From an uncultured Bacilli bacterium (lineage in GTDB: Bacteria > Bacillota_I > Bacilli_A > RF39 > UBA660): a stretch of 64,000 nt of DNA. The notes under the pieces are model-generated. The model worked only from the letters and a program-made list of their open reading frames with translations, made no database searches and had not been told where the DNA came from. Where the stretch lies: positions 1-64,000 of the forward strand of contig CALVRC010000007.1 of assembly GCA_944358445.1 (NCBI GenBank), given 5' to 3'. The translations under genes were made by a program, and so were the position numbers. Positions 59,538 to 64,000 of this stretch are shown piece after piece. Each line of letters starts with the position of its first letter. Position 1 is the stretch's first letter.

Positions 59538-59888
59538 TTAATCTTTTGGTTCAAATATAAGAGACAAAAAGAATGAGAATATAATTGCCGCACTAATACC
59601 AGCAGCTGTTAAATCTAAAGTACCACTAAATAAACCTAAAACACCTTCTGTATTATACCCATGAATTGCCCCATGAGTTAAATTATGTCCAAAACTAGTA
59701 ATTGGAACTAAAGCTCCACCACCAGCCCATAAAATAATTTGATCATATATATTAAATATATCTAAAAATGCTCCAACCACAACAAAAATTACAGTAATAT
59801 GACCAGGAGTTAATTTAGTACAATCTAATATGATTTGTGCAATTGCACAAACAATACCAGCAAACAAAAAAGCATTTAAATATATCAT
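59538..59888 (-). CDS. spoVAE: Stage V sporulation protein AE (SpoVAE/AEb)
   Basis: At 116 residues with four hydrophobic segments it matches the membrane SpoVAE family (LFAGIVCAIAQIILDCTKLTPGH, then GGALVPITSFGH and HGAIHGY). With SpoVAC and SpoVAD it forms the forespore inner-membrane channel for dipicolinic acid. It overlaps spoVAD by 4 bases. Confidence 0.95.
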   Translation of the reverse strand: MIYLNAFLFAGIVCAIAQIILDCTKLTPGHITVIFVVVGAFLDIFNIYDQIILWAGGGALVPITSFGHNLTHGAIHGYNTEGVLGLFSGTLDLTAAGISAAIIFSFFLSLIFEPKD

Positions 59889-60874
59889 GATATTACCTCC
59901 AAACTAACCGCATGACTAATTCCAGGTATTGTAAGTTTATGATTAACCATTGTTGGACTCATTAAAGCTCCAGTAGCCGCAAGTAAAACTCTTTTATATT
60001 TTCCTTTTTTCATCTCATTAAAAATATAACTATATGTAACTAAAGGTGCACATGCTGGACCACTCGCTCCAGCGTAAACAGGTTGCGTTTCTAAATCATA
60101 AAGCATAACTCCCGTATCATTATATTTATCAAGCTTAATATTATATTCACTAAGCATATACTCCTTTAAAATCTCCTTGCCATATATTCCCAAATCACCA
60201 GTCAAAACTAAATCATAATAATCTATACTTCGTCCTGTATCTTTCAAATGTTTATAAATGGTATCAGCCACAGCTTTAGCCATCGCAGCACCCATATTAA
60301 AAACATCCTTACTCAAAGAATCTATAACAGCTCCAACAGTTCCGCTTTCTAATTTAATATTACTTTTTTCCTTAGAAAGTAAAGCACTAACTGCTCCAGT
60401 TGAAGTAAATGTTGTTGCTTTTGGTTTTGGTCCACCATATTCCACCGGATAACGATATTGCTTTTCAGCTGCCGTATTATGTGAAGAAGTAAAAGAAATC
60501 ACTCTATTTGCAAAACCACCTTCAAGTAAAACGCCACTTAAAATAAGTCCTAAAGTTGAATTACTACAAGCCGCATATACTCCAATAAAACTATTATTAA
60601 ATTTTTTCATAACATAATTAGAAGGCGCAATTTGATTAAGTAAATCACCACCTATAAATACATCTACACTATTCAAATCCAATTTTTTCTTACGAGTCAA
60701 AGTATTAATAGCTTCATAGATTAATTTTTCTTCTGCTTCCTCCCAATTCTTTTCTCCAAAATATAAATCTTTATGGCACAAATCAAAATATTTAGCTAGA
60801 GGACCTTCACTTTCATAAGGTCCTGTAATTGTAGCTGTTTCATTTATATAAACATCGTTAAATTTTAATGTCAT
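59885..60874 (-). CDS. spoVAD: Stage V sporulation protein AD
   Basis: The 329-residue protein has the thiolase-like fold of SpoVAD: VDVFIGGDLLNQI, YAACSNSTLGL, TSSHNTAAEKQYRYPVEYG, and DLVLTGDLGIYG. It binds dipicolinic acid on the outer face of the inner membrane for uptake into the spore. It overlaps spoVAC and spoVAE by 4 bases each, so the three are one translation-coupled unit. Confidence 0.97.
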   Translation of the reverse strand: MTLKFNDVYINETATITGPYESEGPLAKYFDLCHKDLYFGEKNWEEAEEKLIYEAINTLTRKKKLDLNSVDVFIGGDLLNQIAPSNYVMKKFNNSFIGVYAACSNSTLGLILSGVLLEGGFANRVISFTSSHNTAAEKQYRYPVEYGGPKPKATTFTSTGAVSALLSKEKSNIKLESGTVGAVIDSLSKDVFNMGAAMAKAVADTIYKHLKDTGRSIDYYDLVLTGDLGIYGKEILKEYMLSEYNIKLDKYNDTGVMLYDLETQPVYAGASGPACAPLVTYSYIFNEMKKGKYKRVLLAATGALMSPTMVNHKLTIPGISHAVSLEVIS

Positions 60875-61308
60875 ATTAAACCCACCACCATTCTGAGTAA
60901 ACTAAATACAAAACTACTAACTACTCCAAAAATAATAACTGCACCAGAAAGCTTAAGCATATTCATACCAATACCAGTAACTAATCCTTCCTTTCTAAAT
61001 TCTAGTGCCGCACTCATTGTCGCATGAGCAAAACCAGTAATTGGAATAATCAAACCACATTTACAAAAATTAACCCACTTATCAAAAAAGCCAAAAGAAG
61101 TAAACAAACAACTAAAAAATATTAAAGTAACAAGCATACACACTGTAGCTTCTTTAGTTGGGATATCAAACCATGAAGAATATCCATCTATTAAAAGTTG
61201 TCCAATAATACCCATTATTCCTCCTGTAATAAAAGAAATAAATGCATTCATAAAAATATTCTCCTTCGGACTATGTTTCTCCGTAATATCTTGATAACTT
61301 TTTTTCAT
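60871..61308 (-). CDS. spoVAC: Stage V sporulation protein AC
   Basis: The 145-residue membrane protein has four or five helices (NAFISFITGGIMGIIGQLL, then IIPITGFAHATMSAALEFRKEG) and matches SpoVAC, the mechanosensitive-like channel component for DPA release. It is first in the unit; TAGGAGGAAAATT precedes the ATG. spoVAA and spoVAB, which precede it in Bacillus, are absent. Confidence 0.97.
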   Translation of the reverse strand: MKKSYQDITEKHSPKENIFMNAFISFITGGIMGIIGQLLIDGYSSWFDIPTKEATVCMLVTLIFFSCLFTSFGFFDKWVNFCKCGLIIPITGFAHATMSAALEFRKEGLVTGIGMNMLKLSGAVIIFGVVSSFVFSLLRMVVGLI

Positions 61309-61357: not shown

Positions 61358-61387
61358 AAAAAAAAACGCGCCTAACAAGCAGGCACG
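61358..61387 (-). terminator. GC-rich terminator at the end of the prepilin-like gene
   Basis: CGTGCCT and AGGCGCG pair (one G-U) and are followed by a run of nine Ts. The stem covers the last codons and the stop codon. Confidence 0.85.
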
Positions 61388-61776
61388 CTAGATGAATTCA
61401 CATATTCATATTTATATTTATTATTAGTAAAGGTAATGACAACTTTTCCATTAAAGTTTTCAAATTTTTCCTTTTCTTCTGTACTATTTTTTTTATACAT
61501 TGGATTTTCAATATCATCAGCATTAAGCAAACCATCTTTTTGAAGAGTATCAACACTTACACTACATCTACTACCATTTGTTTGATCTGGTAACTTTAAT
61601 GAATTTTTAGACATATATGTCCTCGCTGTATCTACAATAGTATTAATTTGCTCATCATAAGCCTTCTCCCTAGAAGAATTAATCGCACTATTAATAGTTG
61701 GAATTGCAATCATCGCAATCAGTCCTAAAATAACAATAACTCCTAAAAGTTCGACTAATGTAAAACCTTTTTTCAT
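61372..61776 (-). CDS. Type IV prepilin-like protein (ComGC-like) inside the sporulation cluster
   Basis: The ATG at 61776 follows AGGTGATAGGT. The 134-residue product starts KKGFTLVELLGVIVILGLIA, a class III signal: Gly at the cleavage site, Phe at +1, Glu at +5, then a 20-residue hydrophobic helix. The rest is a soluble head with Cys residues (SRCSV and the C-terminal C) that could form a disulfide. Such proteins build DNA-uptake or surface pseudopili and need a prepilin peptidase, not seen here. In Bacillus the spoIIA and spoVA operons adjoin without it; it lies between sigF and spoVAC and may be cotranscribed with sigF. Confidence 0.85.
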   Translation of the reverse strand: MKKGFTLVELLGVIVILGLIAMIAIPTINSAINSSREKAYDEQINTIVDTARTYMSKNSLKLPDQTNGSRCSVSVDTLQKDGLLNADDIENPMYKKNSTEEKEKFENFNGKVVITFTNNKYKYEYVNSSSVPAC

Positions 61777-61819
61777 ACCTATCACCTATTATTAATTATA
61801 AATGAGTGTTCTTTAGTTG

Positions 61820-62464
61820 TCAATTAAATGTTTTACGAAGTTTTGTTAAAACCTTATTTTCACTCCTAGAAACATGTGCTTGAGTAAGTCCTAAATTTGA
61901 AGCAACTTCACTTTGTGTCATATCTTCAAAATACCTTTGAAACATAATCGTTCTCTCAGGCTCGTCTAAAGATTCAAACTCTTCCTTTAAAAAGATTAAA
62001 TTATCATAATCTATATCATAGTTAGAAATAATATCATAAAGTGATAAATCATTTAAATAAGGTTCATCCAAACTAATACCATCCCCTTTATAATTAATGA
62101 GTATATTCAAATTTTCTAAAGGAATATTTAAATATTCACTAAGTTCTAGATTTGTAGGTTCTCTCATCAGTTCTTGTGATAAATATATTTTAGCTTTATC
62201 AAGTTTTCTTTTTGTTCTCATCATATCTCTACTTAACCTAACCGTATGATTTTCTCTAACATATTCAGAAATTCTTCCCAAAATATAAGGATAAGCAAAT
62301 GTCGTAAACTTAACACCTCTTGAATCATCATAATTCTTATAAGCTTCCATCATCCCAATGCATCCAGCTTGAAACAAATCATCAATATCATTATTTCCAA
62401 ATTTACAAGCAATACTATAAATTAAATTACTATTTTCTAAAATAACTTCTTTTAAAGGATCCAT
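61820..62464 (-). CDS. sigF: Sporulation sigma factor of SigF/SigG type
   Basis: The 214-residue sigma-70 factor has region 2 (DDLFQAGCIGMMEAYKNYD, KFTTFAYPYILGRISEYVREN), region 3 (VRLSRDMMRTKRKLDKAK) and region 4 (QRYFEDMTQSEVASNLGLTQAHVSRSENKVL). The N-terminus is about 40 residues shorter than Bacillus SigF. Its place after spoIIAA and before spoVA is that of sigF; SigG would be possible from sequence alone. The ATG has AGGAGG, which overlaps the stop of spoIIAA, so the two are coupled. Confidence 0.85.
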   Translation of the reverse strand: MDPLKEVILENSNLIYSIACKFGNNDIDDLFQAGCIGMMEAYKNYDDSRGVKFTTFAYPYILGRISEYVRENHTVRLSRDMMRTKRKLDKAKIYLSQELMREPTNLELSEYLNIPLENLNILINYKGDGISLDEPYLNDLSLYDIISNYDIDYDNLIFLKEEFESLDEPERTIMFQRYFEDMTQSEVASNLGLTQAHVSRSENKVLTKLRKTFN

Positions 62465-62474
62465 CTTTAACCTC

Positions 62475-62798
62475 CTAAATATTAATAAGATTTACCGCTG
62501 AAAGTTCATCACTAACAACATTAAAATGTTCAAAATCAAAGTCGAACTTATCTTTATTAATACAAATCATACTAGTACCTCCATATTTAGAAGAGATGTC
62601 ATAACATTTAATTAATGATTTAAAACCACTAATATCCATTCTATAAACATTTTCTAAATTAAAAACAACATTTTTAATTCCAACATTAATAAGAAACTCT
62701 AAAACATCATTTAATTTCTTACGAGTTTTAATAGTTAATTCTCCAAATAACCTTACAAAAAGTATTCCACACTTCGAGTCCATATCTATCTCTAACAT
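62475..62798 (-). CDS. spoIIAA: SpoIIAA-like anti-anti-sigma factor lacking the phospho-acceptor Ser
   Basis: The 107-residue STAS domain protein shows LFGELTIKTRKKLNDVL, NVVFNLENVYRMDISGFKSL and a C-terminal helix. In SpoIIAA and RsbV the phosphorylated Ser is the first residue after the Asp of M-D-S-S-G; here it is Ile (M-D-I-S-G), and only the second Ser remains. The next gene is sigF after 10 bases, so spoIIAB, normally between them, is missing from the operon. It begins behind GGTGATGAT. It should still fold as a sigma-control STAS domain, but the classical switch cannot work in the usual way. Confidence 0.8.
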   Translation of the reverse strand: MLEIDMDSKCGILFVRLFGELTIKTRKKLNDVLEFLINVGIKNVVFNLENVYRMDISGFKSLIKCYDISSKYGGTSMICINKDKFDFDFEHFNVVSDELSAVNLINI

Positions 62799-62836
62799 AT
62801 CATCACCAAATATACTTTAACACCTTTAAAAAGCGA

Positions 62837-62855
62837 ATTATATACCTTCGCCAAA
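62837..62855 (-). promoter_or_regulatory. Possible Spo0A box and -10 upstream of spoIIAA
   Basis: On the minus strand TTTGGCGAA (62855-62847) differs by one base from the Spo0A box TTTGTCGAA, followed by TATAAT (62842-62837). A canonical SigH promoter is not clear. Confidence 0.4.
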
Positions 62856-62873
62856 ACTAGTCATAAAAAGAAA

Positions 62874-62896
62874 AAATACGCCAAATTAACGTATTT
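62874..62896 (-). terminator. Terminator after ftsK/spoIIIE
   Basis: AAATACG and CGTATTT pair around a 9-base loop and are followed by Ts on the minus strand, directly after the stop codon. Confidence 0.75.
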
Positions 62897-64000
62897 TATT
62901 CATCTTTCTTTTCCAATTTAACAAGAACCTCACGCGGTTTAGCCCCATTAGGTGGCCCAACAATTCCCCGTTCTTCAAGCAAGTCAATACATCTAGCTGC
63001 TCTGTTATAACCAAGTCTAAATCTTCTTTGAAGTAAAGATGCACTAGCCTTACCTTGAGTTATAACAAACTCTCTAATTTCATTATATAAAGGCTCTTCA
63101 TAATCATCATCTTCCACCATTGCAGTAGCCCCTCTATCTTCATCAGCTACAGTTAATGAAGTATCGTACATAGCTTTTTGTTGTGATATTGTATAGTCAA
63201 CAACAGCTTTAATCTCATCATCACTTATAAAAGTTCCTTGAACACGTGTTGGAACACTTTCGCCTTGTGGTAAAAATAACATATCACCTTTACCAAGCAA
63301 CTTTTCCGCTCCACTCATATCTAGTATTGTTCTAGAATCAATACTAGAAGATACCGCAAATGATATACGAGATGGGATATTTGCCTTAACAACACCCGTA
63401 ATAACATCCGTACTAGGTCTTTGAGTTGCAACAATCAAATGAATACCAGCCGCTCTAGCCATTTGTGTTATTCTCATAATTGAATCTTCAACCTCTTTAG
63501 CTGCCACTAACATTAAATCAGCTAGCTCATCAATAATAACAACTATATAAGGAAGTCTATTAATTTTCTCGTTATCTGGTAAACTCTCATTCTTTTTATC
63601 AACATAAGCATTATATCCAGCAATATTCTTAGTCTTACTTCCCTCAAACAAATCATATCTATCTTCCATAATTTTAACTATTTTTTGTAAAACAATATTA
63701 GCTTTTTTAGGATCAGTAACAACCGGTGTAAGTAAATGCGGAACCCCATTATACATTGAAAGTTCAACCTTTTTAGGATCAACTAAAACTAACTTTACTT
63801 CATCAGGCTTTGTTCTCATTAAAAGAGATGTAATCATACTATTGATACATACAGATTTACCACTACCAGTAGAACCAGCTACAAGTAAATGTGGTGTTTT
63901 ATCAATCTCACACCAAACAGGATTACCCATAATACTTTTACCTAAAGCCACAAGTAACTTAGAATTATCCTTAGTTTTAGGAACTGCTTCCAAAATTTCT
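62896..64000 (-). CDS. FtsK/SpoIIIE DNA translocase, C-terminal part (runs off the window)
   Basis: At least 368 residues are visible; the 5' part lies beyond base 64000. The motor domain has Walker [16 protein letters not shown], Walker [14 protein letters not shown] and [17 protein letters not shown], then the gamma winged-helix domain ([33 protein letters not shown]) that reads DNA polarity sequences. It pumps chromosomal DNA through the division or forespore septum. Beside sporulation genes, SpoIIIE function is attractive, but FtsK and SpoIIIE cannot be told apart from this part. Confidence 0.95.

Follow-up and report, generated by a model that had tools for sequence, protein, structure and literature searches.

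How is a forespore sigma factor controlled in a bacterium whose spoIIA locus holds no gene for SpoIIAB? The SpoIIAB/SpoIIAA/SpoIIE partner switch is the standard textbook explanation of how daughter cells take different fates. It had been regarded as common to all endospore formers, and spoIIAA, spoIIAB and spoIIE were found in all spore-formers then analysed, including the streamlined Candidatus Arthromitus (Galperin 2012, PMC3533761). The locus considered here lies in a 64,000-nucleotide stretch of DNA from an uncultured Bacilli bacterium, referred to as the window, and an earlier sequence-only reading had proposed that the switch was replaced or simplified. The genome of the window (1.43 Mb in 40 contigs, 91% complete) was compared with 35 genomes of the same genus, giving a genus set of 36, and with an order set of 146 genomes (144 with a completeness of 90% or more) that spans one family and ~75 genera. 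This composition leads to the inference that the order sampled is most probably GTDB RF39. Those relatives that carry names are MAGs of uncultured Bacilli, several of which come from rumen, sheep ileum or, judged by the isolate name, rabbit, and to our knowledge the order has no cultured member.

Gene order and the search for the kinase and phosphatase

On the minus strand of the window, the genes run in the order ftsK/spoIIIE, spoIIAA, sigF, a prepilin-like gene, spoVAC, spoVAD and spoVAE, which matches the spoIIA-spoVA arrangement of Bacilli except that spoIIAB is missing. The ftsK/spoIIIE-type DNA translocase (62896-64000; NF007615 FtsK, 3.1e-108) lies directly upstream of spoIIAA with a frame that runs beyond the window end, and is a conserved upstream neighbour of spoIIAA in 20 genus loci; an inverted repeat followed by a T-run on the same strand (62873-62897) is a probable terminator between the two genes, recognized by eye and without a tool score. 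The claim that spoVA and spoIVB are kept holds, as profiles matched spoVAC (60871-61308; TIGR02838, 1.4e-44), spoVAD (59885-60874; NF006160, 406 bits) and spoVAE (59538-59888; TIGR02839, 140 bits) on the minus strand and spoIVB (1231-2223; TIGR02860, 346 bits) on the plus strand, the last three above cut-off. The prepilin-like gene between sigF and spoVAC (GFTLVE, 61372-61785; IV_pilin_GFxxxE above cut-off) is unexpected within a spoVA operon and is kept in 22 of 27 loci.

The coordinates confirm that only 10 nt (62465-62474, minus strand) separate spoIIAA (62475-62798) from sigF (61820-62464), and this junction, the usual place of spoIIAB, holds the sigF ribosome-binding site AGGAGG. In 7 of 7 class outgroup loci the two genes stand ~410-580 nt apart with spoIIAB between them. 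The direct junction recurs in 30 of 30 genus loci examined and likewise in all further order loci examined, and for this reason the adjacency is not an assembly accident. In 11 loci spoIIAA has a TAG stop codon with sigF in frame behind it, such that read-through would yield a SpoIIAA-SigF fusion (L006, L010, L011, L024, L054, L065, L068, L071, L090, L110 and L111); sigF is in frame with spoIIAA in 13 of 65 loci overall, two of them with a TAA stop, which is no excess over the one-third expected by chance.

Could spoIIAB simply lie elsewhere, as the sequence-only reading had allowed? No SpoIIAB profile match above cut-off was obtained in any of the 36 genus genomes or 146 order genomes, and 8 class outgroups retain full-length SpoIIAB at 157-186 bits. 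A GHKL-ATPase search of the window genome returned four weak matches, three of which lie in frames of 433-472 aa; these, together with a SpoIIAB-profile match on contig C4, were considered as SpoIIAB and rejected as sensor histidine kinases of 356-472 aa. The kinases so recognized are BceS-type, PhoR-type and AgrC-type proteins with an adjacent response regulator, as well as a KinD-like orphan on contig C12 (L124:855-2156, G000:C12, minus strand). The orphan is a transmembrane protein of 433 aa with an H-box and matches to KinD, AtoS and PhoR-type models, and its gene adjoins another prepilin-like gene and no response regulator. It is a candidate Spo0A kinase, a role more likely for it than that of a substitute for SpoIIAB.

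The phosphatase is likewise missing, and the genome search that had been proposed for SpoIIAB/RsbW-type genes and SpoIIE thus returned neither SpoIIAB nor a SpoIIE orthologue. No SpoIIE phosphatase domain scored above cut-off in the 36 genus genomes, where the single match was in G021 (E 0.005), and the domain is present in the SpoIIAB-bearing outgroups. Among the 146 order genomes no orthologue was found; the three matches comprise two weak ones, of which one attains the cut-off, and then barely, only if frame neighbours are included, plus a strong one in G163. The latter was rejected as a PP2C protein with its own GHKL domain beside a STAS-kinase fusion, which is a separate signalling pair. 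This locus (G163:C2, L127:246-3350), in which an RsbU-like PP2C with a GHKL domain comes after the STAS-plus-kinase fusion, is itself a compact partner-switch-like pair in one order genome. Fin was set aside as a replacement anti-sigma factor, with no anti-SigF Fin match above cut-off in 60 order genomes; for CsfB (Gin) the control of the search gave no match and no conclusion was drawn. As judged by these profile searches, the lineage has lost both the kinase and the phosphatase of the switch, and the loss state is ancestral to the order.

The surfaces of SpoIIAA and SigF

The spoIIAA frame encodes 107 aa with a STAS domain (Pfam, 3.6e-8) and scores 33.2 bits against NCBIfam spore_II_AA (TIGR02886), under the curated equivalog cut-off of 114.75, so that its orthology rests on fold and synteny. 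The AlphaFold model (pLDDT 92.7, pTM 0.86) has the SpoIIAA chains 1thn/1tid/1til/1th8 as its best PDB matches in Foldseek (1thn_B, TMq 0.86, E 1.2e-8), with RsbV and RsbS also among the matches. SigF (214 aa) matches the SigB/F/G profile at 1.5e-48 and spore_sigF (TIGR02885) at 152.8 bits and 1.3e-44, under the cut-off of 321.45; its best PDB chain is 1l0o_C, which we take to be the sigma factor co-crystallized with SpoIIAB, and a distinct SigG is also present in the genome. That both proteins fall far under their equivalog cut-offs is a sign of divergence. Over 19 loci, the divergence of SpoIIAA and SigF far outpaces that of the neighbouring proteins, with mean distances of 0.49 and 0.45 against 0.05 for FtsK and 0.14-0.29 for the SpoVA proteins.

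What remains of the phosphorylation site? Alignment on PDB SpoIIAA (aligned residues 2-82) places residues 54-58 of the window protein, M-D-I-S-G, on M-D-S-S-G, so the sequence-only reading was right that Ile occupies the phospho-acceptor position (D55-I56-S57-G58). When 65 distinct order sequences are set against 9 canonical ones, the residue at position 58 is D in 12, K in 10, S, E, N and M in 7 each, I in 5 and L in 4, with others in the remainder. Relatives with Ser at the acceptor position would have counted against the loss, and only these 7 of 65 have it; D-S-S-G survives in one of the 65, a relative (L010/L094) that retains it, and seven class outgroup loci read M/I-D-S-S-G. The suggestion that the second Ser is used instead is untenable as a general answer because Ser stands at position 59 in only 18 of 65 sequences and is missing from most relatives, neither position 58 nor 59 holds Ser or Thr in 40, and no Ser or Thr is invariant anywhere in the 65 proteins. 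Asp or Glu is the commonest phospho-site residue in the clade of the window, but a fixed phosphomimic was rejected as a general rule since elsewhere K, M, I, L and N are about as frequent at the position.

The change extends beyond the acceptor. E21, D23, F55, S58, S59, G62 and R67, which are invariant in canonical SpoIIAA, and H25 and G66, which are nearly so, are each found in fewer than 30% of the 65 order sequences; the fold and core residues L14, G20, D57, G60 and G76 are retained. S58 is the phospho-site, and R67 belongs to the interface with SpoIIAB as well as to that with SpoIIE (PMC11418112). As inferred from this alignment, with S58 and R67 as the positions of documented role, the SpoIIAB/SpoIIE-binding face of the order SpoIIAA is erased. 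Other residues have become invariant or nearly so in the order (G11, F14, R16, G40, N47 and E98 in window numbering), and dN/dS among the closest pairs is 0.06-0.24, by which measure SpoIIAA is under strong purifying selection. A protein that is selected and has acquired new invariant positions, without an acceptor or a binding face, would have a phosphorylation-independent job.

The SpoIIAA profile matches 107 of 146 order genomes and 58 of 75 genera. SpoIIR is present in 106 of the 107 SpoIIAA-positive genomes versus 29 of the 39 without a match (Fisher p=6e-6, kinship ignored), and although this p-value is optimistic because the genomes are related, the co-occurrence ties SpoIIAA to the output of SigF. 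In the 39 genomes SpoIIAA may be dispensable or may merely be too divergent to be matched.

E149 of SigF, which on the basis of the B. subtilis protein we take to be a contact of SpoIIAB, with E156 as its SigG equivalent, is found in 8 of 8 canonical SigF proteins versus 18 of 65 order sequences, and is retained in the SigF of the window. A SigG E156K mutant has been discussed together with SpoIIAB (PMC3174212). If E149 has that role, the alignment suggests that the SpoIIAB contact of SigF is relaxed in the order, and with the loss of the SpoIIAA face both proteins agree that SpoIIAB is gone. A shortened SigF N-terminus was also considered as an adaptation and rejected as not specific, given that outgroup SigFs with the canonical operon (L037, L040) begin at about the same point. 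Evidence for direct contact between the two proteins was not obtained: no confident docking resulted when the SpoIIAA-SigF read-through product from a relative was modelled with AlphaFold (pTM 0.40), and the distance-tree partial correlation of SpoIIAA with SigF (0.52) was no better than that of the unrelated pair SpoVAC-FtsK (0.63).

The promoter and the sporulation cascade

The most conserved feature upstream of spoIIAA is a Spo0A box, TTTGTCGAA, which is exact in 45 of 65 order loci and present with at most one mismatch in 64, as compared with 0.2% and 2%, respectively, in shuffled upstream DNA. It lies ~48-52 nt before the spoIIAA start in most loci; the window copy, TTTGGCGAA (62847-62855, minus strand), has one mismatch and stands at 48 nt. 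TGnTAAAGT follows exactly 27 nt after the box in most genus loci, and in the window its TAAAGT (62814-62819, minus strand) is a putative -10 element whose function is inferred. The 27-nt spacing would be compatible with a Spo0A-activated promoter.

The genes of the cascade are kept. The window genome has Spo0A, SigH, SigE with SpoIIGA, SigG, SigK, SpoIVB and SpoVAC-D-E, and its sixth sigma factor is probably SigA. Across the order, Spo0A is found in 138 of 146 genomes and SpoIIR in 135, with short or missing copies in a few; tandem genes with Spo0A output domains occur in two genomes (G191:C32:7111-8286 and G196:C17:267227-268414). That the lineage still sporulates is an inference predicted from this gene content, and RF39 was predicted to be spore-forming with markedly different regulation in an earlier survey (Field et al. 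2024, PMC10868615).

Proposed control of SigF without the partner switch

How, then, might SigF be controlled? Sequence alone shows what was lost, that spoIIAA and sigF are linked, that SpoIIAA is under selection with its interface erased, and that a Spo0A box and the cascade genes are present. Our confidence that the partner switch was dismantled and SpoIIAA repurposed is high. The original proposal that the switch was replaced or simplified is supported to this extent by the loss of kinase, phosphatase and acceptor, while what replaced it is still inferred. Without kinase, phosphatase, acceptor or interface the dephosphorylation step cannot operate, and a SpoIIAA that is retained, selected and linked to sigF must act otherwise. 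We hypothesize that SpoIIAB and SpoIIE were lost in the common ancestor of the order and that spoIIAA and sigF stayed together under the Spo0A-box promoter. Phosphorylated Spo0A would turn on spoIIAA-sigF in the predivisional cell, and the two proteins would be made from one message in a fixed ratio. SpoIIAA, as the sole SpoIIA regulator left, would act on SigF as a simple anti-sigma factor or as a delivery or stability partner, with SigF inferred to be held inactive until the forespore. Release, whose trigger is likewise inferred, would follow a route other than dephosphorylation, such as dilution, proteolysis or septum or chromosome cues, and freed SigF would make SpoIIR, leading to SpoIIGA activation and SigE. 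We lean slightly towards this account as a whole, its proposed working included. Direct action on SigF is preferred, since the arrangement of the genes, the joint occurrence with spoIIR and the absence of an anti-sigma factor point to SigF; with no contact evidence it is put forward tentatively, as a preference given less than even odds. More doubtful again, if still possible, is the broadest form of the idea, in which a STAS anti-anti-sigma factor was turned, across the order, into a phosphorylation-independent direct sigma regulator after kinase and phosphatase loss, as a second solution to forespore-specific expression. We know of no STAS protein that acts directly on a sigma factor.

The main rival holds that SigF is governed only by its own synthesis, through Spo0A-driven transcription, translation and turnover, and that SpoIIAA serves another partner, e.g., a septum or chromosome protein, and leaves SigF alone. 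The near-invariant Spo0A box and -10-like element, the lack of any detected replacement anti-sigma factor, the undocked fusion model and the ftsK/spoIIIE neighbour conserved in the genus all speak for it. However, strict spoIIAA-sigF adjacency in very divergent species and the co-occurrence with SpoIIR suggest a SigF-linked role, and unrestrained SigF in the predivisional cell is expected, from B. subtilis, to be harmful; we regard synthesis-only control as unlikely without dismissing it. A surviving partner switch, run in trans by another GHKL-type ATPase such as the C12 orphan, is improbable. The SpoIIAB profile does match weakly many GHKL kinases of similar length across the genus, and the C12 kinase has no neighbouring response regulator, but its H-box and transmembrane character fit a Spo0A kinase better, and the order SpoIIAA offers neither a conserved Ser/Thr acceptor nor the residues that would face SpoIIAB.

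Decay of the locus in a lineage that no longer sporulates properly seems just as improbable. In its favour, genomes are small, many sporulation genes are lost in related orders (PMC10868615), Spo0A and SpoIIR are short or missing in the few genomes noted above, and in a classifier study the sporulation probability of the RF39 MAGs came out at 0% (PMC12536801). All predicted sporulators of that study carry spoIIAB, however, so we infer that the classifier may penalize RF39 by construction, and drift would leave unexplained the low dN/dS of SpoIIAA, the conserved promoter and the intact SigE/F/G/H/K, SpoIIGA, SpoIIR, SpoIVB and SpoVA. That SpoIIAB is present and was missed, through excess divergence or in genomes as incomplete and fragmented as that of the window, is scarcely credible and already contradicted, both by its absence from an order set of nearly complete genomes when outgroup copies score so highly and by the parallel decay of its binding faces on SpoIIAA and SigF. 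The reading that we retain is a dismantled switch with a repurposed SpoIIAA, across the order.

Part of this picture is already on record: one line of a gene-content survey states that RF39 lacks spoIIAB and spoIIE or has them in reduced form (Field, Bowerman and Hugenholtz 2024, PMC10868615). SpoIIAA is unmentioned in its main text, no paper was found in the open-access literature on an erased SpoIIAA, a relaxed SigF contact, the adjacency or the promoter, and the erased SpoIIAA, the SigF change and the promoter appear to be new. An order of dozens of genera with SigF, SpoIIR, SigE, SigG and SigK but no switch must reach forespore specificity otherwise. It isolates the minimal requirements and lets a simpler form of asymmetric differentiation be studied in a natural setting. 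It also cautions that predictors of sporulation may be wrong about an entire order of uncultured bacteria common in the gut if they depend on spoIIAB.

Among known systems, Fin and CsfB (Gin) are small non-kinase inhibitors of Bacillus forespore sigma factors that are not homologous to SpoIIAA. The RsbV-RsbW-SigB and RsbS switches have the STAS fold in common with the order protein, but there it is phosphorylated by a GHKL kinase, whereas the order SpoIIAA has neither kinase nor conserved acceptor. Beyond the RF39 gene set of PMC10868615, the present analysis reports that spoIIAA and sigF are adjacent, that SpoIIAA has lost its phospho-site and interface and is under selection, that SigF has changed, and that a Spo0A-box promoter precedes the pair. 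The order locus differs from the SpoIIAA-SpoIIAB-SigF/SpoIIE switch of Bacillus and Clostridia in being without SpoIIAB, SpoIIE, the phospho-acceptor Ser and the binding face, and it shares with that system an operon in which a SpoIIAA orthologue is encoded together with sigF and ahead of the spoVA genes, control by Spo0A, and SpoIIR, SpoIIGA, SigE, SigG and SigK downstream.
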